Below, piece by piece: positions 1-36,782 of a stretch of 45,790 nucleotides of DNA. This DNA is from an uncultured Armatimonadota bacterium (GTDB lineage Bacteria > Armatimonadota > Armatimonadia > Armatimonadales > Armatimonadaceae). The notes beneath the pieces are model-generated. The model saw only the letters and a list, made by a program, of their open reading frames with translations, searched no databases and had not been told where the DNA came from. The stretch lies in contig CAIVZM010000021.1 of the NCBI GenBank assembly GCA_903910385.1, positions 1 through 45,790 of the forward strand, read 5' to 3'. Both the position numbers and the translations under genes were made by a program. Each line of letters starts with the position of its first letter. Positions within the stretch are counted from its first letter, which is position 1.

Positions 1-624
1 GATGTTTCAATCCTCATCCGGCCTTTCGACCGGATGCAACCACGATGCGTATACTCGCTTCACGCTGTATAATCAGGTTTCAATCCTCATCCGGCCTTTC
101 GACCGGATGCAACCGACATTAGGCTTGAGGAGCGAAAGCAGGAAGTGGGGATGTTTCAATCCTCATCCGGCCTTTCGACCGGATGCAACATGTCATCACC
201 CTGAACCGGCTGACCGGCGAGGTCAAGTTTCAATCCTCATCCGGCCTTTCGACCGGATGCAACCATCTTATTGCTGGATCTTCAGGATGAACGCGGGTTT
301 CAATCCTCATCCGGCCTTTCGACCGGATGCAACACGTCTTGATACAGGTGCGGTATGCTGGATTGCGTAGTTTCAATCCTCATCCGGCCTTTCGACCGGA
401 TGCAACCCGCATCCAAAGCGGGCGTCTTCGACGGACTGTTCAAGTTTCAATCCTCATCCGGCCTTTCGACCGGATGCAACCGGTCACCAAATCCTTCAGC
501 GTTTGAGTGGCGACGTTTCAATCCTCATCCGGCCTTTCGACCGGATGCAACTTGTATCAACTCGTGACAAGCGCTTCGGATTTCAGCGTTTCAATCCTCA
601 TCCGGCCTTTCGACCGGATGCAAC
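1..624 (-). CRISPR. Type I-C CRISPR array, nine repeats, open at left edge
   Basis: Nine identical 37-bp repeats start at 4, 77, 153, 227, 297, 370, 444, 515 and 588, and the last ends at 624. The eight complete spacers are 36, 39, 37, 33, 36, 37, 34 and 36 bp. Bases 1-3 are the end of a further spacer, so the array continues beyond the window. Read on the minus strand each repeat begins GTTGCATCC and ends GGATTGAAAC, the 3' end typical of type I-C repeats. It folds into a 9-bp stem (one G-U pair) closed by a GAAA tetraloop. Transcription is therefore on the minus strand, in line with the cas genes, and the right-hand spacer (552-587) should be the newest. No spacer matches another part of this window by eye. 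Confidence 0.98.
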
Positions 625-770
625 TGTGATTTCCTTCTCATTCTCACGCGCCGGAGGAAGCGATTTCCCCGGAGTCGTTGATTTTATTGCCCCCCATGAG
701 ATGAGGGGCGCCCGCGAACCCTTCCGTGAAATGGGCGCCACTTGGGGTTCGCGGACAGCGTTAAAATGTC
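625..770 (-). promoter_or_regulatory. CRISPR leader
   Basis: These 146 bp separate the end of cas7c from the first repeat and lie upstream of the array in its transcription direction, which is the position of a leader. A perfect 10-bp inverted repeat (CCGCGAACCC at 712-721 and GGGTTCGCGG at 745-754, 23-nt loop) lies in the half next to cas7c. A shorter GCCCC/GGGGC pair follows around 690-708. A TAAAAT hexamer on the minus strand (681-686) is a possible -10 element, without a clear -35. The palindrome could also end cas operon transcription, but it has no T-tract. Confidence 0.6.
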
Positions 771-1646
771 TTAACCATCTACGAGGGTGGTCAATTCGAC
801 CTTACCGACGTAGGCATCCGGGATACGGGGTCTTTCTACAATGTAGTCCTCATAGCGTCGCGCCGTTTCTACGCCGTCCCGTTTGCGGATGTTCAGCGTA
901 TCGAACAACTTGTGCGCCGGGGCGTCCCCGAGAGGACTATTGTGCGAGAAGACGTAAAGACCTCGACACGCCATCAGACCGCGTGCGGCGGAATGGTCAA
1001 CATCCCACATCATTTGCAGAGCGTTCCAGAGTAAGTCAAGGTCATCCCGCGTCACCCCTGTCTGCTTCGTAAACGCAGCAGAGATGAAGCCATGCGCGAC
1101 GTACAGGCCATATGGCAACAGAGATTTGCGCCCCATGGTGCGATTGTCGCCGCCTTGCGCCTCCGCCTCCTTCACAGTCGCCACCGCCATTCGGGTAATG
1201 GAAATATCAAGCGGTTGGACGGGGTCAATGCTACGGGCGAAGGTAAACTGCACTGGACCGCGTACCTGTCCGGCATTATTGTCCTTGAGTGACATAACCG
1301 CCCCGAATAGGCGAACATCATAGAACAAATCGCACATTTTCTGGCGTGCCTCCGCGACGGATGGCTTCCCGCCCAGCGCCGTATACGCCCGTCCCTGCTG
1401 CTGGCTCAAGACAGCCTTTTCCTGAACATAGATGTCGTAACCTTCCATGTCCTCCTTTGCTATCTGGACATAGTTACGGACTTTGCGCTTGAGGCAGACG
1501 TCGGTAACGATGCCATGCCCGGTCTGTGGGTCGGTGCGCGGCAGGTTGCCTGCGTCCGGGTCGCCGTTGGGATTGCCATCGGTCACATCGAATATCAAAA
1601 TAAAGTCATGCCGTCTGGTCGGATCGGCGTAGATGTTGTCAGCCAT
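771..1646 (-). CDS. cas7c: Type I-C Cascade backbone protein Cas7c (Csd2)
   Basis: 291 aa, the usual size for Cas7/Csd2 of type I-C. It forms the helical backbone of the Cascade effector along the crRNA spacer. The N-terminal segment FDVTDGNPNGDPDAGNLPR followed by GIVTDVCLKRKVRNYV is the family hallmark. A later FARSIDPVQPLDISITRMA segment and the C-terminal IPDAYVGKVELT also fit Csd2. It begins 35 nt after cas8c; a GAGGAG stands about 13 nt before the ATG, a long spacing. The gene is the last of a four-gene operon; the CRISPR leader starts directly after its stop codon, where cas4-cas1-cas2 would normally follow. Confidence 0.96.
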   Translation of the reverse strand: MADNIYADPTRRHDFILIFDVTDGNPNGDPDAGNLPRTDPQTGHGIVTDVCLKRKVRNYVQIAKEDMEGYDIYVQEKAVLSQQQGRAYTALGGKPSVAEARQKMCDLFYDVRLFGAVMSLKDNNAGQVRGPVQFTFARSIDPVQPLDISITRMAVATVKEAEAQGGDNRTMGRKSLLPYGLYVAHGFISAAFTKQTGVTRDDLDLLWNALQMMWDVDHSAARGLMACRGLYVFSHNSPLGDAPAHKLFDTLNIRKRDGVETARRYEDYIVERPRIPDAYVGKVELTTLVDG

Positions 1647-1681
1647 AGAAATTCACTGTCTCCTCATTTAGGGTAGTGGGG

Positions 1682-3538
1682 TTAAGCGTTGCCGTTGTCT
1701 TCGCTTTCAGGGGTGTCCATTACTGCATCAGGGTCTTCCGGTTCCACGATGGCTTCGCCCGCCTTGCGTCTTTCTTCCTGTTCGCGGCGGACGCGGGCGC
1801 GTTCGGAATAGTAACCGAGAGCGAAACTGCCCTGCTGGCGCATATTGAATGTCTGGGGGAATTCCGCGCCGATATGGGTCATGATTTCCCCCAGACGATC
1901 CTGCAGACCGAAGTAGGCGCGAGAATATTTACCTCGTCGGACGGCAGGCAGGTGCGCCTGTTTCGCCATACGCAGGAGTGGAGGGAATATAGTGCGCGGC
2001 GTTGTGGACGCGCCGCCGTAGTAGCGGTCTACGACGGTCGCGTTCGCCTCACGCTCCAGGGCAAGGTACTGGATGCGTTCCAGTTGATACAGGAGCCGAC
2101 CGCAGTTGTAGGCAGGGTCGGCGTTGGTTGAGTCGAAATCGCTCATTCGTTCCACCTTTTCTTGGTCAAATTGGGTCGTCTGGGAATCCCAGGAGAGCAG
2201 CAGTTTCAGCAGGGCGGCGCGTCGGTAAGGGACGTGTTCCCGGCGCGTTTTACCGCCTCCTGCGGGCGTATCGTCGCCGATGACGCAGCGGCGCACGGCG
2301 AGGGGCAATAGGGCGATAGGCGGCGCAGCCCCGGTCAGCGCCGTTTCCGCCATCGCCGTATACAGGTAATTGGGGACATCCTTCTGGACGCGGAACCCAG
2401 CCTCGACCAGTTGCCATGTCGTCAGGTACGCTCCCTCCCCGCCGTTCGGGGCGACGATGCGCGTCCGCTCGAACCACTGCCGCTGACGCTCGAACATTTC
2501 CTCCATAGTCAGGGTCAGAGCGGAGCGCAGGGCGACGCGCCCGCCGCTATGCGACGACAGACCGAGGATATGGAAGGGTGCGCTGTCATCGTAGGCATAG
2601 GCTTTTTTGCCCGTTAGGGGCGCGGTCAGTAAGTCACGAACGGCAGCAGGGTCGGGGTCGGCGAGGAAAAACAATTGCACTTCCCCGGCGGGTGACCAGA
2701 AGGCGTACTTGACGCCGCTATCAAACGGCCCCATCGTCCGGCTATGGCGCGGCGATTGTAGCAAGGCATTGAGCGCTTTGCCTACCCGCTCCCCGGCGTC
2801 CCGGCTAATAGGCGCGGAGAATTCGCGCAGTCCGTAGGACATAAATGCATTCTCATTAAACGAGGACAACGCCGCCCCCGCCGATTGTCCTCCCGGCACG
2901 TTCTTAATGCCGACCGGCAATTTGGTTTCGACCTCACCTTCTTGCCCAGTCACCAGACAGACCATGCGGCGGCTGTCTTTGGCCCGCGTGAACTGCGCCC
3001 AGAACTCTTTTGCCTCCGGCGCGTCGCTGACGATTTCCGTTTGTCCGCGCAGACGAAAACCAATCATGTCATTGCTTTTCATTTCGACGGGCAGAGGAAA
3101 TTCCGGGCTTGCCGGGTTCCAGCGGTCAAGGAATCGAACCACCGGGTCAAGGGAGGCGAGATTCGTTTGTGTCTGGCATTCGCGCACCATATCGCGGAAC
3201 GCGAGGCGGGTTTCCTCGTTCCGTGGCTTCGCCTTGCCTTCAGCGGCGGCCTTTCCATCCTCGATACCGAAGACATAGGCCGCCTTGTCCACCAGCGCAA
3301 TCGCGGCAACGCCAGATGTCCGCCCCAAATAAGGGAGAATATCGGCGCGAGGCGCTTCTCCTTTCTTGCGGTCGCCCTGCGCCAACGCGACCAGTTCGGC
3401 GCGGTCAGTGGCGGGGTCAATCTCTACGACATAGGCGAGCGGTTGATAACTGTACATCGCGGGCGGCAGACCAAAATTCTTACCGTAGACCTGTCCCATA
3501 ATCGCCTCGGCGTCCGCGTGCAGGGATTGCAATATCAT
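1682..3538 (-). CDS. cas8c: Type I-C Cascade large subunit Cas8c (Csd1)
   Basis: 618 aa from the ATG at 3538. Cas8c is the large Cascade subunit that recognises the PAM and recruits Cas3. The start MILQSLHADAEAIMG and the following PLAYVVEIDPATDRAELV match Csd1 N-termini, and the length fits the family. The frame is open much further upstream (to 3820), but that part lies antisense-like over cas5c and looks non-protein. The 3538 start has a GGAGG 7 nt upstream and overlaps the cas5c stop as ATGA, which points to translational coupling. The C-terminus is acidic (VEPEDPDAVMDTPESED). Only the cas3-5-8-7 interference set is present. Confidence 0.95.
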   Translation of the reverse strand: MILQSLHADAEAIMGQVYGKNFGLPPAMYSYQPLAYVVEIDPATDRAELVALAQGDRKKGEAPRADILPYLGRTSGVAAIALVDKAAYVFGIEDGKAAAEGKAKPRNEETRLAFRDMVRECQTQTNLASLDPVVRFLDRWNPASPEFPLPVEMKSNDMIGFRLRGQTEIVSDAPEAKEFWAQFTRAKDSRRMVCLVTGQEGEVETKLPVGIKNVPGGQSAGAALSSFNENAFMSYGLREFSAPISRDAGERVGKALNALLQSPRHSRTMGPFDSGVKYAFWSPAGEVQLFFLADPDPAAVRDLLTAPLTGKKAYAYDDSAPFHILGLSSHSGGRVALRSALTLTMEEMFERQRQWFERTRIVAPNGGEGAYLTTWQLVEAGFRVQKDVPNYLYTAMAETALTGAAPPIALLPLAVRRCVIGDDTPAGGGKTRREHVPYRRAALLKLLLSWDSQTTQFDQEKVERMSDFDSTNADPAYNCGRLLYQLERIQYLALEREANATVVDRYYGGASTTPRTIFPPLLRMAKQAHLPAVRRGKYSRAYFGLQDRLGEIMTHIGAEFPQTFNMRQQGSFALGYYSERARVRREQEERRKAGEAIVEPEDPDAVMDTPESEDNGNA

Positions 3539-4257
3539 TCGTCGTCCTCCCCTTCCTGGTTCGTATCTTCCGCCACGGACGGGCGCGGGCGCGGTTTCCA
3601 CGGCGCGGAAAGTTTCGCAAGCAGTTCGTACTGGAGCGGCGGGATTTCCATTTTGCCGTCGGTCAGTCCCGCTTCGAAGAACAGCGGCGCGTTGGCGTCC
3701 CCGTTTTCCGAGAAAGCGATGTCGAACAGCATCAGGCCGAGCGATTGCGTCAGCGGGACAGGACGCAGGGAACCTTCGTACTGCGACGGGTGACAAAAAT
3801 GCGCGGCAAACTCGCGGCAACCCAGAGCCGGACGGTGGAAACAGCGCCCGCGCTCCACGCGCCGCCGAAACTGATGGCGGAACTTGGCGGCGTCCTCGGT
3901 TACATCGGGCCGCACCACAACATCGGCGCGGATATGATATGCCACATCCCGCAGGGCCAGCGTCAGCCGTTGCGTCCGCTTGTCCACGATGTCTATGGGC
4001 GTCGGCTTGTCGCGGGGGTCGCCCATCTTCGCCGTCACCTCATTCCGCAGGAACGAGACATACTGCACCGGCTTGAGGACGCGAATCTCCCGAATCTGGT
4101 AGCGGAATTCTGGCTTCCAATAGACCGCCTCCAACATTCCCCGCGCCGCTCCCGGCGGCGGAACCGGGTACGTCACCCGTTCCGCCTTCGCCTCCGGCCT
4201 TGTAAAACATGCCCTTTCGCCCCACATTATAATTTCCAGCGGTATTTCGTTATTCAT
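3535..4257 (-). CDS. cas5c: Type I-C Cas5c (Cas5d) crRNA-processing subunit
   Basis: 240 aa. In type I-C, Cas5 replaces Cas6 as the endoribonuclease that cuts pre-crRNA at the repeat hairpin and stays bound to the 5' handle. The RAMP-type start PLEIIMWGERACFTRPEAKAE, the G-rich turn PPPGAARGMLEAVYW and the late GRCFHRPALGCREF motif are typical of Cas5c. I place the start at 4257 because AAGGAG stands 6 nt before that ATG; an in-frame ATG pair at 4272-4275 has no such site. Cas3 ends 24 nt upstream and cas8c overlaps the stop by 4 nt. Confidence 0.95.
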   Translation of the reverse strand: MNNEIPLEIIMWGERACFTRPEAKAERVTYPVPPPGAARGMLEAVYWKPEFRYQIREIRVLKPVQYVSFLRNEVTAKMGDPRDKPTPIDIVDKRTQRLTLALRDVAYHIRADVVVRPDVTEDAAKFRHQFRRRVERGRCFHRPALGCREFAAHFCHPSQYEGSLRPVPLTQSLGLMLFDIAFSENGDANAPLFFEAGLTDGKMEIPPLQYELLAKLSAPWKPRPRPSVAEDTNQEGEDDE

Positions 4258-4281
4258 AATCGTCTCCTTCATCACGTATTT

Positions 4282-6651
4282 TCAACTCATCAATCGCTCC
4301 ACCTCGTACACCACGCCATCGGCAGGGTCGTTGGGGAGGGGCAGTCCTGTTTTTTCGTCGTATTCGCCGGGCCAGAGGAACAGGCCGGGGAATCGCTCCT
4401 CCCACTTTTCCGCGTCTTTGGCGTAGACGCTGACACAAAAAGGTTGTAACTTTCGCCAATCGTCCCGGTTTAGGCCGCCGCGACGGTCGGCGGCGGTGAA
4501 AAGCGCGTTTACGTCCAAATGCTTTTCGGCGTAAGCCAGCGGCAGGACAGGGACGGTATTGTCCTCTATCAGTTTGACTTTCTGAGCGACTTCCGGGTAG
4601 TTGAAGGCGCGGACGGACTGCTCGACCTGTCTGGCGTCATTGAGGCTACCGTTGTCGGCGGTAATCGCGTGGAACCACTCTGTCACTCGTTCGGGGTTGT
4701 CGAAGTCGAAGGTTCCGCCGCGTTGCGCGGCCTCCGCCATCCACTGCCGCGTTTTGTTGCGGGCGGCTTGATACAGTTTGTCCGGCGGCGTTTTGTCGTC
4801 GGCGGGGATGAAGATGGTCACCGGGCTATCATCAGCAAGTCGTTTGCCCTCGCGGTTGCAACGCCCCGCCGCCTGAATCAGCGACGGCAACGGGGCCAGC
4901 GCCCGAAACAGACGGGGGAAATCCACATCTACCCCCGCCTCAACAACAGTCGTGGAGACTAATCGGGTCGGAAGGCCCTCCCGCAGTCGGCGGCGAATTT
5001 CGGAGAGTACGGCCTTCCGGTGATGCCCGCATAGCATGGTGGAAAGATGGAACGCCGATTCATCCGTTCGGTCGGGGTCAAGCGCGTCGAGGATTTCGGT
5101 CGCCTGACGCCGGGTATTGACGACGCAGAGCGCGGATTCGGCCTCACGCAGTCGGTCGGCGGCGTCCGCAATCTCCCACGGTTCCCCGGCGACCTGATAG
5201 CGGACGCGACGCAGGGCGTCGAAATGCGCCTTAACATCGCTAACGATTTCGGTCGGGCGCGGATTGAACCCGGAAAAGTGCGGCGTCTCCGCATGGAGCG
5301 CGGGTTGGGTCGCGGTACAGAGAACAAGCGTCACGCCGTAGTGCGCGACCAGTCGTTTCAGACCCTCCACCAGCGGGGCGAGAAGCGACGGCGGCAGCGT
5401 CTGTACCTCATCCAGAATCAATACGGAATTGGCGATACGGTGCAGTTTGCGGCATTTTCCGGGGCGGTTGGAATACAGGGATTCAAAGAGTTGCACCTGC
5501 GTTGTTACCACAAGGGGCGCATCCCAGTTTTCCGCTGCCAACCGCCGCCAGACTTCCCGGTCATCCAGCCCGTCCGTCGCTTCACCCGGTTCCACCGCCG
5601 AATGATGTTCCAGAACGATACGACTATCGGTTTCCGTTGCGAGAGCGTCGAAGATTTCCTCGTACACGGCGGCGGTCTGGTCTAAAATGCTGGTGAACGG
5701 GGCGGCGTAAATGACACGACGTTTTTCCCATCGTTCGGCGTGTTTCAGGGCGAAGACTAATCCGCTACGGGTCTTTCCGCCGCCTGTCGGGACGGTCAGG
5801 GTAAACGCTCCTGGTTCAGTCTCCGCCGCTTTAAGGCAATCCGACAGGACGGCGGCGCGGACAGTGTTTACCGTCGCGTTTGCATCGCCTTTTTCGGCTA
5901 CTCGATGTTCCAGTTCCGCCTGATTCGCCTGAAACGCGGCGAGAAGTTGCGCCATTGTTGGAGCCTTTTCCGCTTCGATACGGCGGCGTTCGGCGGTAAC
6001 GGGCGATTTATGAGCCTCGGTATCCAGCCCGTCGGCATCTGTCAGGCAGGAATAGACAAAACGCAGGTACATCTCGAAATCGCCCTTGTCGCCGCCGGAC
6101 AGAATAAAGGAGGGTATCAGTTCCGTCATCGGCGGGGGCGGCGGAATCAGATTGTCTTGCGTCCCGTTGGCGCGGACGAGGAGTTCCTCTGGCGAACGCC
6201 TCATCTTTCTTGCCCATTCCGCTTCCTTGTTGATGGTGTCGTGAACGCTTTCGATTCGCGTATGATGCCCGAACAGGATTTGCGCCAGATGCACACCGAG
6301 TTGGGGGACGGCCTTACGGGCGATTTGCGCCCCGCTCTGCTTGTGGGGCGCGGAACCCGGCTGAGGCTTTGCCCGGATTTCCTTTCGATCGTAACGCCAG
6401 CAACCATAAAGATACTGTTGGAAATTATCGTCGAACTTTCCGAGATCGTGTAATCGCCCGCAATATCGCGCCAGCGACGCCCCGCCGAACGGTTGCGCAA
6501 ATTGCTCCGCCAGCGACGCAACGCTCAACGTATGATCAACGAGCGAATGCCACTGAGGGTTTTTCCGTGATGGTGTGTGGGCGACAAAAAAGGGTAGACC
6601 GTTGGGGGGGACTGGCGGCGTAGTAGCGGATTGATCTTGTTTTTCACTCAT
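4282..6651 (-). CDS. cas3: CRISPR-associated nuclease-helicase Cas3
   Basis: 789 aa. Cas3 is recruited by target-bound Cascade and degrades DNA. The N-terminal HD nuclease has H40, the H68-D69 pair in HDLGK, and further metal-site histidines at KQSGAQI/HKQ (about 103) and GHHT (129-130). The SF2 helicase part shows Walker A PTGGGKT (288-294), motif II DEVQ (414-417, in place of DEAH/DExH), motif III CTATQ (445-449), motif V STTVVEAGVDVDFP and motif VI QAAGRCNREG. All catalytic residues I can identify are present, so interference looks intact. The start has GAGGTAACGAGGC immediately upstream, a workable ribosome site. First gene of the cas operon. Confidence 0.96.
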   Translation of the reverse strand: MSEKQDQSATTPPVPPNGLPFFVAHTPSRKNPQWHSLVDHTLSVASLAEQFAQPFGGASLARYCGRLHDLGKFDDNFQQYLYGCWRYDRKEIRAKPQPGSAPHKQSGAQIARKAVPQLGVHLAQILFGHHTRIESVHDTINKEAEWARKMRRSPEELLVRANGTQDNLIPPPPPMTELIPSFILSGGDKGDFEMYLRFVYSCLTDADGLDTEAHKSPVTAERRRIEAEKAPTMAQLLAAFQANQAELEHRVAEKGDANATVNTVRAAVLSDCLKAAETEPGAFTLTVPTGGGKTRSGLVFALKHAERWEKRRVIYAAPFTSILDQTAAVYEEIFDALATETDSRIVLEHHSAVEPGEATDGLDDREVWRRLAAENWDAPLVVTTQVQLFESLYSNRPGKCRKLHRIANSVLILDEVQTLPPSLLAPLVEGLKRLVAHYGVTLVLCTATQPALHAETPHFSGFNPRPTEIVSDVKAHFDALRRVRYQVAGEPWEIADAADRLREAESALCVVNTRRQATEILDALDPDRTDESAFHLSTMLCGHHRKAVLSEIRRRLREGLPTRLVSTTVVEAGVDVDFPRLFRALAPLPSLIQAAGRCNREGKRLADDSPVTIFIPADDKTPPDKLYQAARNKTRQWMAEAAQRGGTFDFDNPERVTEWFHAITADNGSLNDARQVEQSVRAFNYPEVAQKVKLIEDNTVPVLPLAYAEKHLDVNALFTAADRRGGLNRDDWRKLQPFCVSVYAKDAEKWEERFPGLFLWPGEYDEKTGLPLPNDPADGVVYEVERLMS

Positions 6652-21967: not shown

Positions 21968-22004
21968 TCTATCGGGGCTGAGAGCGAATATCATCCCCGA
22001 TAGA
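21968..22004. terminator. Terminator hairpin between convergent genes
   Basis: TCTATCGGGG (21968-21977) pairs perfectly with CCCCGATAGA (21995-22004) over a 17-nt loop, followed by CATTTACATTT. It sits between the stops of the DUF3500 gene and the convergent SPFH lipoprotein gene and could serve both. Confidence 0.6.
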
Positions 22005-22033: not shown

Positions 22034-22984
22034 TTATTCGCCCTGCGGCGGAACCTCACGAGTTCGTTGTGGCGGAGTCAGTGGCGTTGTCGCGGTCTCC
22101 CGGGGCGCGGGCGGCGAACCGGCATTGACAATCGCTCCCTGCGGGACGCCGACGATACGGATATCATCCAGATGCTTGTATTTCACCAGACGCGGCGTCA
22201 GGGAAGCGGCGCGTATACGGGTCGCTTTCGCTTCCGCCTCCGCTTTGGATACCGCCCGTGCGTTCGCCAGATTTGCTAACTGCTGATTGAGCGTGGAAAG
22301 GCGCAGATTCTGCTCCGCCACTAGATGGGTTCGCAGGGTATTTTTCGTATTCTCATCTGGCCAGATTGCCCGTATCCGGACTTCGTCCACGATGATGGAG
22401 TCGGTATTGAGTATTTTATTCAATTCGCTCCGGGCATCTTCAGCGGCGCGACGTTTCCCATCGCCGGTCATCGCCTCCACCGTGGTCATCTTGCCGAACG
22501 CATTGGAGACATACTTGCGAAACAGGGGTCGTAGCTGGCTTTCCTCGAAGGCGCTGAATCCGCTCCCCTGAAACTGCGACCGGTACTTGGCATACAGATT
22601 TTTCAGTTCCTCCTGCTTGTTGGGGTCAAATGTCAGGTGGTAGGTGACGGAAATATCTACATTCAGGATGTTGGTGGAGGCGGTGTTGACACGGACGCTA
22701 TCATCCCCACTCCGTGCGCCTTCCGTAGTAGTCCGCACCATCGTATAAGTCCGCTTATGCGTCGGGATTTCGACCATTTCGTAGCCGGAGAGCGGAGGTA
22801 ACGGGTTAAAGCCCGCACGGCGCACATTACCATCCACTTTGCCCGAGTAATGGTTTACGACCAGACCGACATTACCCGTTTTTACCACCGTTCCGCACCC
22901 CGAAAGTGCAAACGCCACAACCAGCAGAACAAGGTACAGAAGCGCCGACGAAAAAGCGTTTCCGCTGTAGCGATTGGTTTTCAT
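22034..22984 (-). CDS. SPFH (band 7/prohibitin-like) lipoprotein
   Basis: 316 aa. A signal peptide with lipobox LSGC places the lipidated Cys at 30, an unusual anchor for an SPFH protein. Residues 35-215 look like an SPFH domain: TGNVGLVVNHYSGKVDGNVRR, then the HKRTYTMVR strand, NTASTNILNVDISVTYHLTF, and the helix RAAEDARSELNKILNTDSI. A coiled-coil (LSTLNQQLANLANARAVSKAEAEAKATR) follows, then a proline-rich tail. Last gene of a three-gene operon; its ATG overlaps the previous stop by 4 nt (ATGA). Probably assembles with the neighbouring SPFH protein at the membrane. Confidence 0.88.
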   Translation of the reverse strand: MKTNRYSGNAFSSALLYLVLLVVAFALSGCGTVVKTGNVGLVVNHYSGKVDGNVRRAGFNPLPPLSGYEMVEIPTHKRTYTMVRTTTEGARSGDDSVRVNTASTNILNVDISVTYHLTFDPNKQEELKNLYAKYRSQFQGSGFSAFEESQLRPLFRKYVSNAFGKMTTVEAMTGDGKRRAAEDARSELNKILNTDSIIVDEVRIRAIWPDENTKNTLRTHLVAEQNLRLSTLNQQLANLANARAVSKAEAEAKATRIRAASLTPRLVKYKHLDDIRIVGVPQGAIVNAGSPPAPRETATTPLTPPQRTREVPPQGE

Positions 22985-23826
22985 TTTTTGAGCATTCCCA
23001 TGATCTGGTCAGACGGCAGATAGACGGTATCGACACGTTCCAGAATTTTGTCCTGGATATACAGGTCTGTCAGTGCGGAGTCCCGCGCCTTGTTGATTTG
23101 GGCCTCGGCAGTTGCGCTCTGAATCAGGGTCGCGTTATCGATTTCCTGTTGCTTCAGCGAGAGTTTGGCGTTCTCGATATCCTGCATCTTGGCGGTGGTA
23201 GCGGAAAGCAGTTCCTTTGCCTGAGCGTCCGGTTCCACTGCACGGATCAAGAGGTTCCGAAATTCGACGCCGCGAGGGCCCCACTCTTTCTGCAACATCG
23301 CCAGCGCCTGTTGCTCCGCTTTGGTCTTACCGGCGGTGGTCATCGCCTCTGCGGTGTCCAGATCGCCTATTGCGTAATTGATCGCTTCTTTGATAGCAGG
23401 ACGGATATTCACGTCTTCAAAAAGCGTCAGATTAGCGAAGGTGTCCTGATAGTCGACATACAGTTCACGCGCTTTATCCCCACGGACATTGTATTGCGCC
23501 GTTACATCGGCGGTCAGCATATTCGAGGACGTATTGACATCGATGGGAGCGCTGTTTGCCGTATGGCTGTCGAAGGAGAGCGTCCTTTGCATGGTCGGCA
23601 CCTCGATCACCGTTTCCCAGATCCCCTGAAAGTGAACCCCGGACGGCATCAGCGCCTCTTCGACGACGCCATGATAGTTATCGATCCGCAGACCGACATT
23701 TCCTGGGGAGATATAAGTCGGTCCCGCCATGTGACCGCCCGCAGCGAGAGAAACGACAAAAAACCCGAAAACGCCAATGATAACCAGGCCGCCCCCAATG
23801 AGACAGCCCATTTTAGAAGATTTCAT
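22981..23826 (-). CDS. SPFH (band 7/prohibitin-like) membrane protein
   Basis: 281 aa. One N-terminal membrane helix (about 8-30, CLIGGGLVIIGVFGFFVVSL) without a lipobox cleavage context, then an SPFH domain (about 38-215): SPGNVGLRIDNYHGVVEEAL, PTMQRTLSFD, NTSSNMLTADVTAQYNVRG, and RPAIKEAINYAIGDLDTAEA. A coiled-coil follows (QDIENAKLSLKQQEIDNATL). The domain is homologous to that of the downstream lipoprotein, so the pair resembles hetero-oligomeric SPFH pairs such as HflK/HflC, although no FtsH-type protease is nearby. Overlaps both neighbours by 4 nt. Confidence 0.88.
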   Translation of the reverse strand: MKSSKMGCLIGGGLVIIGVFGFFVVSLAAGGHMAGPTYISPGNVGLRIDNYHGVVEEALMPSGVHFQGIWETVIEVPTMQRTLSFDSHTANSAPIDVNTSSNMLTADVTAQYNVRGDKARELYVDYQDTFANLTLFEDVNIRPAIKEAINYAIGDLDTAEAMTTAGKTKAEQQALAMLQKEWGPRGVEFRNLLIRAVEPDAQAKELLSATTAKMQDIENAKLSLKQQEIDNATLIQSATAEAQINKARDSALTDLYIQDKILERVDTVYLPSDQIMGMLKK

Positions 23827-24272
23827 ATTCCTCTTTTTCTTTGTGAGAGCGGTTCCGCTACAGAAGACTTCCTCTCCAAAACGGCTGTTACAGGAGGCGC
23901 CTCCCCTTCTCTTGTTGAGGTTTCCTCAACGCGAGAAACCGTCTCTTGCGATAATGCCTCCATCGACGCCATCGGCAGACGGTCTGCGAGCGCATGGACA
24001 TGCGAGTCGGAACTGATGCACACCGGAATCACCAGTGTCTGCGTGTGGCAACGCGGACAACCGCTCTCTTGCAGAGGACCGCGAAACGCTTCATCGCACG
24101 AGGCGCAATACAGAGGTTCTCCGGGTACAGAAAGCCATCGCTCTATATCTTCCGCCCGCTGATGCGCCTCTTTGACGCTCCGCTCCTGTTGGAGAGTCTT
24201 ACGGAAGAAGAGCGTCCATATTCCGATGATCATAAGCCCGATGAACAGTATTCCAGGAAGGACAAATAGCAT
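23823..24272 (-). CDS. Membrane-anchored zinc-ribbon protein, first gene of the SPFH operon
   Basis: 149 aa. An N-terminal membrane helix (2-23, LFVLPGILFIGLMIIGIWTLFF) leads to a helical linker and a zinc ribbon with CASC and CPRC pairs (about 56-75), as in LYCASCDEAFRGPLQESGCPRC. The tail is polar and probably disordered. Its stop overlaps the ATG of the first SPFH gene by 4 nt, so the three genes are almost certainly co-translated. No function recognised; the context suggests a partner or adaptor of the SPFH complex, facing the cytoplasm or periplasm depending on topology. Confidence 0.75.
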   Translation of the reverse strand: MLFVLPGILFIGLMIIGIWTLFFRKTLQQERSVKEAHQRAEDIERWLSVPGEPLYCASCDEAFRGPLQESGCPRCHTQTLVIPVCISSDSHVHALADRLPMASMEALSQETVSRVEETSTREGEAPPVTAVLERKSSVAEPLSQRKRGI

Positions 24273-24699: not shown

Positions 24700-24932
24700 A
24701 TGGAAGACTACATCATCACGCGCCGACGATTCCTGCAAAACAGCGCCACAGTGTGCAGTACATTCCTGATTCCGCAACTCGCTGCTTTCGGCGAACGAGA
24801 ACCCGTGGCGAACGAGAACCCGTGGCGAATGAGAACCCGTGGCGAATGAGAACCCGTGGCGGACGAGAACCCGTGGCGGACGAGAATCGTATCGTCCGTT
24901 TTGGTCTGATGACGGATGTCCATACGGGTTGA
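24700..24932 (+). pseudogene. Remnant of a Tat-exported metallophosphoesterase
   Basis: The ATG at 24700 has GGAG 9 nt upstream and encodes MEDYIITRRRFLQNSATVC followed by STFLIPQLAAFG, a twin-arginine signal peptide with RRRFLQ. The frame then runs into a 17-bp tandem repeat and stops at 24847. Beyond the repeat, in another frame, RIVRFGLMTDVH (ending at TGA 24930) matches the first strand and metal-binding D-x-H of calcineurin-like phosphoesterases. The rest of the enzyme is missing. One repeat copy fewer would bring both parts into one frame, but the protein would still end after TDVHTG. I infer a gene broken by repeat expansion and by loss of its 3' part. Confidence 0.6.
24796..24880. repeat. 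17-bp imperfect tandem repeat, five copies
   Basis: Units of CGAGAACCCGTGGCGAA begin at 24796, 24813, 24830, 24847 and 24864. The first base is C or T and the last two are AA or GA. A sixth, degenerate start (CGAGAATCG) follows at 24881. The period is not a multiple of 3, so each copy gained or lost changes the reading frame. Confidence 0.93.
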
Positions 24933-25089: not shown

Positions 25090-26802
25090 ATGAGAAAGCT
25101 CCATGCAAGTGATATGGCGGATACCCAAGACATTCTTATCATTGATGCCAATCCCCTTGACCGGGCGGAAATCCGTCGTCTACTCCTGACCGATTCAACG
25201 CACCAGCGTCGCATTATCGAAGCCGATTGCGGTCATGAGGGAATTCGTCTGGCATTCGGCCGCAGAGGACGTCCTCTGGACTGCATCCTGCTCTCCTGTA
25301 ACTTACCGGACATGGATACGATAGCGGTTCTGGAAGCTCTTTGCGGCAATGACTTGACCCCGATTCGCCCTGTCGTGGCAGTCACAGATTCCTGTCCTGT
25401 ATCCGCTTCTATTCTCTTGCAGACGGGAGCGCAGGATTGTATCGAAAGAAATACGCTGACTCTGGAAGCGCTCACTCGCTGTATAGATAATGCGATTTCC
25501 CGCTATACCTTCCTTACCCTGCGTCAGCAGCGTCAGGAAGAGCATTTCCGCGTTGAATCGGAGGTGGCGAGCATGGGAATTCTTGCCATTGATTATGCGC
25601 GAGATACCGCGATTGCGAACGCTATCGCCGCCGACCAATTCGGTCTTCCTGCAGACATAGCGGTTTCACGTAGCGCTGTTCATGACCGATTTCACCCGGA
25701 TGACCGTGCGGAATTATCGCGACGCATCGCCCGGTGCCTGGACCCGTCCGGCGATGGCGTATTCGCAATGGAACATCGTGTCATTCGTCCTGATGATTCC
25801 ATTCGCTGGTTGAGCGTTCGAAAACAGGTGACGTTCGAGCGAACTCCTCAGGGACAGCGACCCGTGGCGGCGACCCTGATGGCGGTGGATATCACCGCTC
25901 GTAAGCAGGCGGAGATTGCTCTGTATCAAAGCGATACTAAGTTTCGTTCTATCTTCTCAAACGCCGCTGTCGGGTTTATCATGACGACTCCTGAAGGCGA
26001 TTTTGTGGAAGCCAACCCGGCATTTAGCCTACTGACCGGCTATTCCTCAGAGGAAATTGGCAATCTGAATCTCTCTCAGCTTATCCATCCTGACGACCGG
26101 GATAACAATATAGTGCAGATACAGCGAATGCTTGATGGGGAGATATCCAACATTGTCATCGAGAACCGCTATATTCGCAAAGATGGGCAAACGCTCTGGG
26201 TAAAGAAAAGCATCTCTCTGATAAAGGATGCAGGAGGCAAGCCCCAGTGGATTATTGCTCTCACAGAAGATATCTCCGAGCGCAAGGCAGCGGAGGAAGC
26301 GGTAAAAGAAAGCGAATCGCGCTTCCGGGCGACGTTCGAACAGGCGGCAGTCGGAATTGCCCATGTCAGTCTGGAAGGACGGTGGTTACGCGTCAACCAG
26401 CGCCTCTGCGATATTGTCGGTTACTCGCGTGAGGAGTTATTGCAGACCACGTTTCAGGATATTACGTATCCGGAAGACCTGGATGCCGACCTTGCTCAGA
26501 ATACACGCCTGCTTAACGGGGAGATATCGCTTTTTTCTATGGAAAAGCGGTATATCATGACATATTCCGAAATCTGGTGGAAAACTCTCCTTTCGGCATC
26601 TACGCCGTGGATGCAGACTTCCGGTTGGTTCAGGTCAGCACAGGAGCGCAAAAGGTATTTAAAAACGTGCACCCGCTTCTGGGAAGGGATTTTGGAGAGG
26701 TATTGCGCGGCATCTGGCAGGAACCGTTCGCCAGTGAGGCTATCAACCGGTTCCGCCATACTCTGGATACTGGCGAACCGTATCATGCCCCCAGCACAAT
26801 AG
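25090..26802 (+). CDS. N-terminal part of a split sensor kinase: degenerate receiver plus PAS domains
   Basis: 570 aa as read, of which the last 80 or so (after EKRYI, near 26556) are out of the ancestral frame. Residues 14-130 have the response-regulator receiver fold (ILIIDANPLDRAEIRRLL), but the phospho-acceptor Asp is Ser (CILLSCNLPDMD), the N-terminal acidic pair is D-A and the conserved Lys is lost. Three PAS domains follow (about 150-275, 280-400 and 405-490), with PAC-type ends such as TLMAVDITARKQAEIAL and WIIALTEDISERKAAEEAV. The third PAS lacks its C-terminal half. Its kinase part continues in another frame in the next entry, so the ancestral gene was a single receiver-PAS-kinase. 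Start at 25090 with AGGTGG about 9 nt upstream. Confidence 0.75.
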   Translation: MRKLHASDMADTQDILIIDANPLDRAEIRRLLLTDSTHQRRIIEADCGHEGIRLAFGRRGRPLDCILLSCNLPDMDTIAVLEALCGNDLTPIRPVVAVTDSCPVSASILLQTGAQDCIERNTLTLEALTRCIDNAISRYTFLTLRQQRQEEHFRVESEVASMGILAIDYARDTAIANAIAADQFGLPADIAVSRSAVHDRFHPDDRAELSRRIARCLDPSGDGVFAMEHRVIRPDDSIRWLSVRKQVTFERTPQGQRPVAATLMAVDITARKQAEIALYQSDTKFRSIFSNAAVGFIMTTPEGDFVEANPAFSLLTGYSSEEIGNLNLSQLIHPDDRDNNIVQIQRMLDGEISNIVIENRYIRKDGQTLWVKKSISLIKDAGGKPQWIIALTEDISERKAAEEAVKESESRFRATFEQAAVGIAHVSLEGRWLRVNQRLCDIVGYSREELLQTTFQDITYPEDLDADLAQNTRLLNGEISLFSMEKRYIMTYSEIWWKTLLSASTPWMQTSGWFRSAQERKRYLKTCTRFWEGILERYCAASGRNRSPVRLSTGSAILWILANRIMPPAQ

Positions 26803-28373
26803 AACGTCGTCAGGATATCAACGAAATCGAGGCATACGACTGGAAAATCGAGCGGGTTATGTTGCCTGATGGTCGCTTCGGAGTTGTCTGCCACTTTTAT
26901 GACCTTTCGGAGCGGCTACGTTATGAAGCGGCGTTGCTCGAAAGCGAGGAGCGTCTTCGCTTGGCGGCGCAGACAGCAGGCTTTGGCATTCATGACTACG
27001 ATGTGGCAGACGATCAGTCCTTCTGGACGCCGGAATTATACGCAATTTCCGGAATCGCAGAGGGGGTAAAGATAGACATGGAGGCTATCCGGAATTTTAT
27101 CCATCCAGCGGACCGCAATGCGGTACTCACAGCGATGGAAGCGGCGCTTGATCCCACTGGGACAGGTTCGTTTTCCGAAGAGTTCCGTATCCGGCGAGGA
27201 GATACCGGCGAGACACGATGGGTATATAATCGTAGCCAGACCGTCTTCGAAGAAAAGGATAATTCCAGACGCCCGGTTCGAAATACGGGAATCATTCAGG
27301 ATATTACTGATCGCAAGGAAGCGGAACTGGCGCTAAGGGAAAGCGAAGAACGCCTGAATCTTGCCACGGAAGCTGGACGTCTGGGCGCCTGGGAGTGGAA
27401 CATTGCTACCGACAGGATCGTGTGGTCGCAACAGATGGAACGGAATGCGGGCTTCGCCCCCCATCAATTCGCAGGAACCATGGAAGCTTTCCGTGCTCTG
27501 ATTTATCCGGATGACCTTGAAAGAGTCAATCAGGCGATTTCCCGAACAGTCAACGAAGGTGCAGAGTACGCAGCGGAATTCCGTATGGTGCGCCCGGACG
27601 GAAATTTACGGTGGGCGTCGATGCGTGGCACAGTCATACGCGACCCCGAAGGAAATCCCGTTCGTATGCTGGGCGTCGATCTGGATGTGACCGAGCGCCG
27701 GCTTCAGCAGAATGCGATTGAAGAACTGAATCTCCGGCTTCGGCGAGCGATGGAAGAAAGCCACCACCGCATCAAAAATAATCTGCAGGCGCTTTCTGCG
27801 GTAGTGGATCTGCAACGCATGGACGCCGCCGAGAATGTTTCGGTGTCTGGTCTCGTCCGATTGAGCTCGCATATTCAGACACTCGCATCCCTGCATGATC
27901 TGTTAACGATGGAATTAAGGTCGGACGGCGGAAACGTGGATACGCTGTCTTTACGAAGCGCTCTGGAAAAAATGCTGCCGTTGATGGAAACGGCAGGTGG
28001 CGGACGCCGTATCGTCATGTGCGCGGAGGATATCCGGGCGCCCTTGAAGCAAGGTTCGAATTTCACCCTTCTGGTCAACGAACTGGTCGCCAACGCTATC
28101 AAACATGGACAGGGAGAAATCACGATAAATTTACGTCGTGAAGAATCCCTTCCGACAAATCAAGGCAAGCCTTCGGCGCCCTACGCCCAACTGGAAGTTT
28201 GCGATGATGGCCCAGGATTTCCGCAGGATTTCGATCTGGAACGGGCAGCGAATACCGGTTTACGCTTGATCGAGAGTATCGGGGTCTGGGATATGGACGG
28301 GAAGCTGGAGTTCGGGAATCGTGCAGAGGGCGGCGCTCGTGTTATTGTCACCTTCCCGATCCTGTGGGAATAG
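26577..28373 (+). CDS. C-terminal part of the split sensor: PAS domains and HisKA_2-type histidine kinase
   Basis: 598 aa if the GTG at 26577 is used; it has no ribosome site. The PAS start is visible in this frame from about 26559 (DIFRNLVENSPFG). Three PAS domains precede the kinase (about 1-120, 125-250 and 255-380). The phosphotransfer segment EESHHRIKNNLQALSAVVDL (near 394) is HisKA_2 type with the His in SHHR, and the ATPase has the N-box LVNELVANAIKHG, G1 CDDGPGFP and G2 TGLRLIE. The catalytic half is complete. It was probably continuous with the upstream receiver-PAS gene; a deletion of the rest of PAS3 plus a frameshift separates them. Confidence 0.8.
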   Translation: MENSPFGIYAVDADFRLVQVSTGAQKVFKNVHPLLGRDFGEVLRGIWQEPFASEAINRFRHTLDTGEPYHAPSTIERRQDINEIEAYDWKIERVMLPDGRFGVVCHFYDLSERLRYEAALLESEERLRLAAQTAGFGIHDYDVADDQSFWTPELYAISGIAEGVKIDMEAIRNFIHPADRNAVLTAMEAALDPTGTGSFSEEFRIRRGDTGETRWVYNRSQTVFEEKDNSRRPVRNTGIIQDITDRKEAELALRESEERLNLATEAGRLGAWEWNIATDRIVWSQQMERNAGFAPHQFAGTMEAFRALIYPDDLERVNQAISRTVNEGAEYAAEFRMVRPDGNLRWASMRGTVIRDPEGNPVRMLGVDLDVTERRLQQNAIEELNLRLRRAMEESHHRIKNNLQALSAVVDLQRMDAAENVSVSGLVRLSSHIQTLASLHDLLTMELRSDGGNVDTLSLRSALEKMLPLMETAGGGRRIVMCAEDIRAPLKQGSNFTLLVNELVANAIKHGQGEITINLRREESLPTNQGKPSAPYAQLEVCDDGPGFPQDFDLERAANTGLRLIESIGVWDMDGKLEFGNRAEGGARVIVTFPILWE

Positions 28374-35959: not shown

Positions 35960-36137
35960 CCAAGACCTCTGGCAAACGCTCATAGTCCCGCACCAAACGA
36001 CGAAAGCGACTCTTCCACCCAAAAGAACGCTCTACTACCCAACGACGAGGCAACAGCACAAATCCCTTCTTGAACGTCGACAGTTTCACCACTTCCAATG
36101 CAATACCGTGCGCTTGTGCGTCATCTTTGGCATCTTC

Positions 36138-36199
36138 ACCAGTATAACCTTGGTCCACCCACGCCAATACCAGTATAACCTTGGTCCACCCACGCCAAT
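36138..36199. repeat. 31-bp tandem duplication that breaks the transposase
   Basis: A 31-bp unit beginning ACCAGTATAACC and ending CACGCCAAT is perfectly repeated at 36138-36168 and 36169-36199. Since 31 is not a multiple of 3, it shifts the reading frame. Confidence 0.95.
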
Positions 36200-36782
36200 T
36201 GAACATTCTTTCCCGTGATTTCCTGCACTTGACGCGATAATTCCGCCACTTGATCTCGCTCCTGTTCGTTCGCAGGCGTCACCACGAGAGCCAAAAGGTG
36301 GCCCAAAGTGTCCACGGCGATATGAACCTTGGATCCCTTCTTCTTTTTATGCCCGTCATACCCGGCACGATTCCCACTTTCGATAGTACCTTGCAGCGTT
36401 TGAGCGTCGTAAATCACCGCCGTCGGCTGTTTTCCCCGATTGGCTGCGACCCGCAAAAGTTCCCTCAGGTCGTCGACAAGGTCCTCGAAAACTCGGGCAT
36501 CGATCCATCGAAGCGTCTGTTGGTAGACCGCCTCCCAAGGAGGGAAGCTATCCGGGAGAAATCTCCAGGGAATTCCGGTCCTGACGACGTATCGCAAGGC
36601 GTTGAGGACTTCGCGCAAATCGTGCTTTCTCTGGGGCGAATCGGGCGAAATCAGGGCAAGATACGGTGCAATGAACTCCCATTCGGCGTCTTCGACGTCA
36701 GAGGGGTAGCGTTTTTTGAGTTTCGGCGTCTTTTCCACGCCATTTATTACCCGAAACGCCACAATTCAGTTCATAACACCGT

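Follow-up and report, generated by a model that had tools for sequence, protein, structure and literature searches.

SPFH cages, among them those of HflK/C, prohibitin, stomatin, and flotillin, occur in all domains of life. In Escherichia coli, FtsH is surrounded by a periplasmic cage in which HflK alternates with HflC (PMC12048511). The hflK and hflC genes adjoin hflX and hfq, not ftsH. A 2009 survey expected the prokaryotic prohibitin-like group SPFH4 to point into the periplasm and take the place of HflK/C, and did not mention a lipoprotein anchor for it (PMC2636767). The Bacillus subtilis SPFH protein YdjI carries a zinc-finger motif and works with the membrane proteins YdjG/YdjH and with PspA (PMC8581546). 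In the qmcA-ybbJ (QmcA-YbbJ) and flotillin-NfeD operons, an SPFH protein is encoded together with a small, NfeD-like membrane partner.

The locus described here lies in a 45,790-nt stretch of DNA (the window), corresponding to contig C21 in the 4.47-Mb draft genome of an uncultured Armatimonadota bacterium. ORF calling placed three genes on its minus strand in the order Z, SPFH-A, and SPFH-B (Z, A, and B below), with the following features:

23823–24272, minus strand: Z, an ORF of 149 aa with one N-terminal membrane helix, a charged helix, a zinc-ribbon motif, and a variable tail
24048–24107, minus strand: zinc-ribbon core of Z (C56-C59 / C72-C75), invariant in seven aligned homologues
23823–23826, minus strand: Z/A overlap of 4 nt, from the sequence
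22981–23826, minus strand: SPFH-A, an ORF of 281 aa with an N-terminal TM anchor
23131–23712, minus strand: SPFH (Band_7) domain of A, profile match
22981–22984, minus strand: A/B overlap of 4 nt, from the sequence
22034–22984, minus strand: SPFH-B, an ORF of 316 aa, predicted lipoprotein
22895–22906, minus strand: lipobox L27-S28-G29-C30 of B, read from the sequence
22256–22888, minus strand: SPFH (Band_7) domain of B, profile match
21969–22004, no strand assigned: inverted repeat CTATCGGGG...CCCCGATAG between B and the convergent DUF3500 gene, read from the sequence

The coordinates of the two overlaps agree with the compact operon, overlapping by 4 nt at each step, that was described in an earlier sequence-only reading. 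The operon is flanked by a DUF3500 gene and a PAS protein gene, and since the neighbours vary between genomes, the three genes themselves are the unit. The difference from flotillin/NfeD pairs proposed in that reading also stands, as no NfeD gene is present in the operon or as either neighbour; in place of the NfeD-like partner of those pairs and of QmcA-YbbJ, the operon encodes a TM-plus-zinc-ribbon protein, which gave no match to Pfam NfeD, and two SPFH paralogues. The inverted repeat is a possible two-way terminator for the DUF3500 gene and B, and is absent from the terminator scan output. Upstream of the operon, 17-bp tandem repeats (GGCGAAYGAGAACCCGT) occupy window positions 24773–24903 between Z and the divergent PAS gene. 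There, a response-regulator/PAS protein (25090–26802) overlaps a PAS/histidine-kinase ORF (26577–28373) in a different frame, and the two probably belong to a single hybrid kinase gene that a frameshift or an assembly error has divided. At the contig start (window 1–6651), a CRISPR array of nine repeats of about 37 nt, spaced 70–76, is followed by minus-strand cas genes including Cas7 (771–1646) and Cas3 (4282–6651); this locus looks like type I-C. An IS4/5-type transposase ORF (36136–36762), which stops early within the DDE domain (matching positions 3–89 of 200), is probably truncated.

Both A (56.3 bits, E 5.5e-15) and B (64.0 bits, E 2.4e-17) match Pfam Band_7, whose cut-off is 23.6 bits, and the only other SPFH match in the genome is one slipin-like gene. 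The two are paralogues that align over 242 columns at 28% identity (hhalign, E 6e-38) and differ in their anchors, as the sequence-only reading had it: A has a TM helix at about residues 9–27, predicted from the charges to be N-in/C-out, and is without a lipobox, while the N-terminus of B reads MKTNRYSGNAFSSALLYLVLLVVAFALSGC30. Here, LSGC30 lies behind a hydrophobic segment and fits the bacterial lipobox pattern [LVI][ASTVI][GAS]C. B also keeps the RAASLTPRLV block that is invariant among its orthologues. In a single-chain model of B (mean pLDDT 79), the SPFH subdomains are joined to a 60-residue coiled-coil helix (211–271). Among solved structures, Foldseek ranked human prohibitin, stomatin, and E. 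coli HflK/C nearest to this model (E 5e-15 to 1e-13), with prohibitin PHB1/PHB2 (PDB 8rrh), which is of similar length, as the best fold match; global TM-scores of this monomer model are moderate, at 0.4–0.5. SPFH4 proteins are of similar length as well (PMC2636767). The B profile matched Prohibitin-2 weakly (E 0.017) and in the SPFH2/coiled-coil part only, and the A profile gave no prohibitin match.

As with E. coli HflK/HflC, A and B are a paralogous SPFH pair with a coiled coil, encoded by adjacent genes, and their SPFH domains are predicted on the periplasmic side. The differences are the predicted lipid anchor of B in this clade, the extra gene Z, and the lack of hflX/hfq neighbours. The absence of an FtsH link, which had also been counted as a difference from HflKC, does not serve as one: E. 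coli hflKC lie beside hflX/hfq and not beside ftsH either, and FtsH is encoded once in the present genome, away from Z-A-B, so that a missing ftsH neighbour cannot separate the two systems. NCBIfam HflK/HflC models gave no match to A or B at E<1.

Z has a membrane helix at about residues 4–24, followed by the knuckles C56xxC59...C72xxC75, and the motif CxxC-x3-F-x-GP-x4-GCPxC is invariant in all seven aligned homologues. No Pfam or NCBIfam zinc-ribbon model scored above its cut-off, the best being Zn_ribbon_6 with 13.5 bits against 25. The AlphaFold model shows a helix (4–48) and then short strands around the cysteines, with pLDDT of 77–97 by block over residues 1–80, and found no significant structural match (best E 0.5). 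Sirtuins, rubrerythrin, and LapB appeared at chance level only and were rejected as the fold of Z. The last of these, LapB, belongs to the E. coli inner membrane, has a rubredoxin-type domain on the cytosolic side, and functions together with FtsH. The charge pattern of Z is N-out/C-in, opposite to that of A; owing to the positive charges after its helix, the charged helix and the zinc ribbon are predicted in the cytoplasm.

An SPFH protein, operon-linked membrane proteins, and a zinc-finger motif likewise come together in B. subtilis pspA-ydjGHI (PMC8581546). This system lends some credit to a protease-free membrane-microdomain scaffold, flotillin- or YdjI-like, in which the cage would organise lipids or recruit a peripheral stress protein and Z would be a tether, since YdjI with its zinc-finger motif has YdjG/YdjH and PspA as partners (PMC8581546). 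In pspA-ydjGHI, however, the zinc finger is on the SPFH protein, which itself has no membrane anchor and binds the membrane from within the cytoplasm, whereas the SPFH domains here are predicted outside; PspA is encoded in that operon, whereas no PspA-like gene was recognised beside the Z-A-B loci, whose neighbours were read by eye. Such a scaffold seems unlikely, if still worth serious attention.

Z-A-B is a real, conserved three-gene unit. Among the 291 Armatimonadota genomes searched, there are seven strong Z matches (that of the window's genome and homologues in six others), all directly upstream of A, so that the linkage is not due to chance and the linked zinc-ribbon membrane protein of the earlier description is confirmed. 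The whole Z-A-B set is retained in six of the seven, which belong to two families, and B orthologues were found in these six; in the seventh (G007), the contig ends inside A. In G013, a DUF1016/YhcG-type nuclease gene lies between A and B. In G013 and G016, B is immediately followed by a TMEM14-family gene (L007:2371-2688, L008:1171-1488), whose Pfam Tmemb_14 identity was tested on the G013 copy. A scan of genome contigs for the genes, with strict search patterns, returned only Armatimonadota/Armatimonadetes MAGs.

The sequence-only reading had staked itself on two observations, and they came out differently. Co-occurrence of the triplet in other genomes is borne out by the six sets. The lipobox is not conserved: LSGC is present in only two of the six B orthologues, those of the window's genome (G000) and of G002 in the same family, and the other four, from the neighbouring family, have no lipobox cysteine and a plain N-terminal membrane helix, around which the charges are slight and do not settle the direction alone. 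With the lipobox in only two of six, lipidation is better understood as an anchor swap than as a sign of the outer membrane, and the lipid anchor and membrane helix of B look interchangeable in these sequences. This bears on the idea that lipoprotein B carries an SPFH complex at the outer membrane or the cell surface. The idea would fit the glycine, not aspartate, that follows the lipobox cysteine; against it are the helix in place of the cysteine in four of six B orthologues and the inner-membrane helix of A, and we regard it as very improbable. A site on 'the outer face or at the outer membrane' had been suggested: the outer (periplasmic) face of the inner membrane is retained, and the outer membrane is unlikely given the helices in A and most B orthologues.

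A second SPFH pair, A'B', was found in 22 other Armatimonadota genomes of several families. A' is helix-anchored. All 21 readable B' sequences, as well as a phage copy (see below), carry a cysteine where the lipobox would place it, and Gly-Cys is invariant in 14 aligned B'. Since seven of the 21 lipoboxes fit the strict consensus, seven a loose one, and seven neither (including QWGC, LRGC, LPGC, LRSC, and FSGC), lipidation is likely for many B' proteins, not all. In 20 of the 22 genomes, including G009 (L082) and not counting G001, the gene immediately preceding A' encodes Z', a small protein with a single helix, a charged tail, and no zinc ribbon; a third membrane protein, predicted to face the cytosol, thus recurs. 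In G165, Z' is replaced by a protein with a zinc ribbon and a membrane segment about 230 nt upstream of A' (L088:4667-5161), which has no Pfam match. G122, whose own Z' is without a zinc ribbon, encodes, apart from its SPFH operon, a stand-alone protein that is similar to Z in having a membrane helix and a zinc ribbon (L070:1474-1794). Z' sequences are too variable for a usable search profile, and an hhalign comparison of Z with Z' covers the membrane helix only (28 columns, 84% probability), so the two are not taken as proven homologues.

Adjacent SPFH pairs of a third class, with helix/helix anchors, occur in other Armatimonadota (L099, L100, L111-L113); no small gene of the Z' kind was seen at the six such pairs examined. 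G032 (L020 / L110) has a lone, unpaired SPFH gene with the canonical lipobox LTGC. No genome was seen with two of the three pair classes, which number 7, 22, and roughly 20 of 291; at these numbers the lack of co-occurrence is near chance, and mutual exclusion was not adopted.

In a tree of 71 sequences, A joined B (100/99) and A' joined B' (94/89), with E. coli HflK, HflC, and QmcA outside A+B on long branches, their exact position being unsure. Topology tests rejected A with A' (p-AU 6e-8) and B with B' (p-AU 8e-12), which eliminates one ancient duplication giving A/A' and B/B'. These groupings and rejected alternatives suggest that the pairs arose in separate duplications, or that the paralogues were homogenised by gene conversion. 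By the family-model and tree tests, Z-A-B is not HflK/C, and the assignment of B as HflC and A as HflK was discarded. Highly diverged true HflK/HflC orthologues, with anchor and partner changed, would share the same pair logic and the same predicted membrane side, and the three pair classes were never seen together in one genome. However, neither A nor B matched the HflK/HflC models, in the tree the two pair with each other as products of their own duplication, and the absence of shared genomes is about what chance would give, which leaves such orthology hardly credible.

Links to phages were also found. A (E 9.8e-31) and B (E 2.2e-38) match PHROG_200, a phage SPFH family labelled 'lipoprotein', over nearly their full length. 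On the lipobox cysteine, the orthologues are divided: B of G000 and G002 has it, the other four B orthologues do not, and A has no lipobox. In contrast to the A/B pair, phages with PHROG_200 showed one SPFH place per record in the searches, and Z was not seen at the two annotated phage loci examined. A search of phage records turned up single B'-related SPFH genes in 447 of them, and B itself gave no match in viral contigs. One contig, IMGVR_UViG_3300033067_001111 (IMG/VR, 101.5 kb), encodes a terminase, a portal, and a complete Z'-A'-B' cassette (L102:2840-4837) in which A' and B' overlap by 4 nt; its A' shares 51% identity with the A' of the host genome G133, and its B' shares 44% with the query. 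This is a single case, and one scan for close relatives gave no further phage copies of the cassette. The PHROG_200 matches (E 1e-30 to 1e-38), this contig, and the 447 records are what one would expect if Armatimonadota had domesticated a module derived from or related to phages, with a role in superinfection exclusion, envelope protection, or host take-over. However, no obvious phage genes lie beside the chromosomal loci that were read, and the phage may simply have acquired the operon from a host. A defence-system search of the operon (PADLOC) had no match either, and the operon was not considered a defence system. Such a phage-linked module appears quite unlikely.

At about even chances, we prefer the reading in which A and B form a heteromeric cage of the HflK/C-prohibitin type at the periplasmic face of the inner membrane and Z is an adaptor directed towards the cytosol. 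A with its clear N-in/C-out helix and B as its full-length paralogue place the SPFH domains best in the periplasm, as in HflK/C (PMC12048511), and the inner membrane is favoured because A and most B orthologues have a membrane helix. We infer co-assembly into a ring that would alternate TM-anchored A with lipid- or TM-anchored B; Z, crossing the membrane once so that its charged helix and zinc ribbon lie on the cytoplasmic side, would connect the cage to a cytosolic partner. By analogy, the simplest such partner may be a membrane protease, FtsH for example, or the clients of that protease, with Z serving as the adaptor. The cage is supported by the fold match of B to known SPFH cages and by the retention of both paralogues in one operon in six genomes (with the intervening gene in G013), and a third subunit by the repetition of the Z' design beside A'B' in the 22-genome sister set. 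The lack of a sequence assignment to HflK/C and of a genetic link to ftsH counts against this reading, as do the moderate TM-scores of the monomer model.

No description of a recurring three-gene SPFH operon with mixed anchors was found in the open-access papers searched. The operons may tentatively represent a previously undescribed machine, a periplasmic-face cage of TM- and lipid-anchored SPFH paralogues with a dedicated single-pass subunit reaching the cytoplasm (by a zinc ribbon in one lineage and a plain charged helix in the other), which would have arisen in two separately duplicated pairs and moved between hosts and at least one phage; we put this somewhat short of an even chance. The recurring mixed-anchor three-gene pattern, found also in a phage, is of more interest than a single lipobox. 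It ties host SPFH operons to the widespread SPFH lipoproteins of phages and bears on how SPFH cages reach cytosolic partners and why heteromeric pairs form. Since the type of anchor, lipid or helix, changes and the predicted topology does not, these operons would provide natural variants for the roles of the anchor and the small partner.
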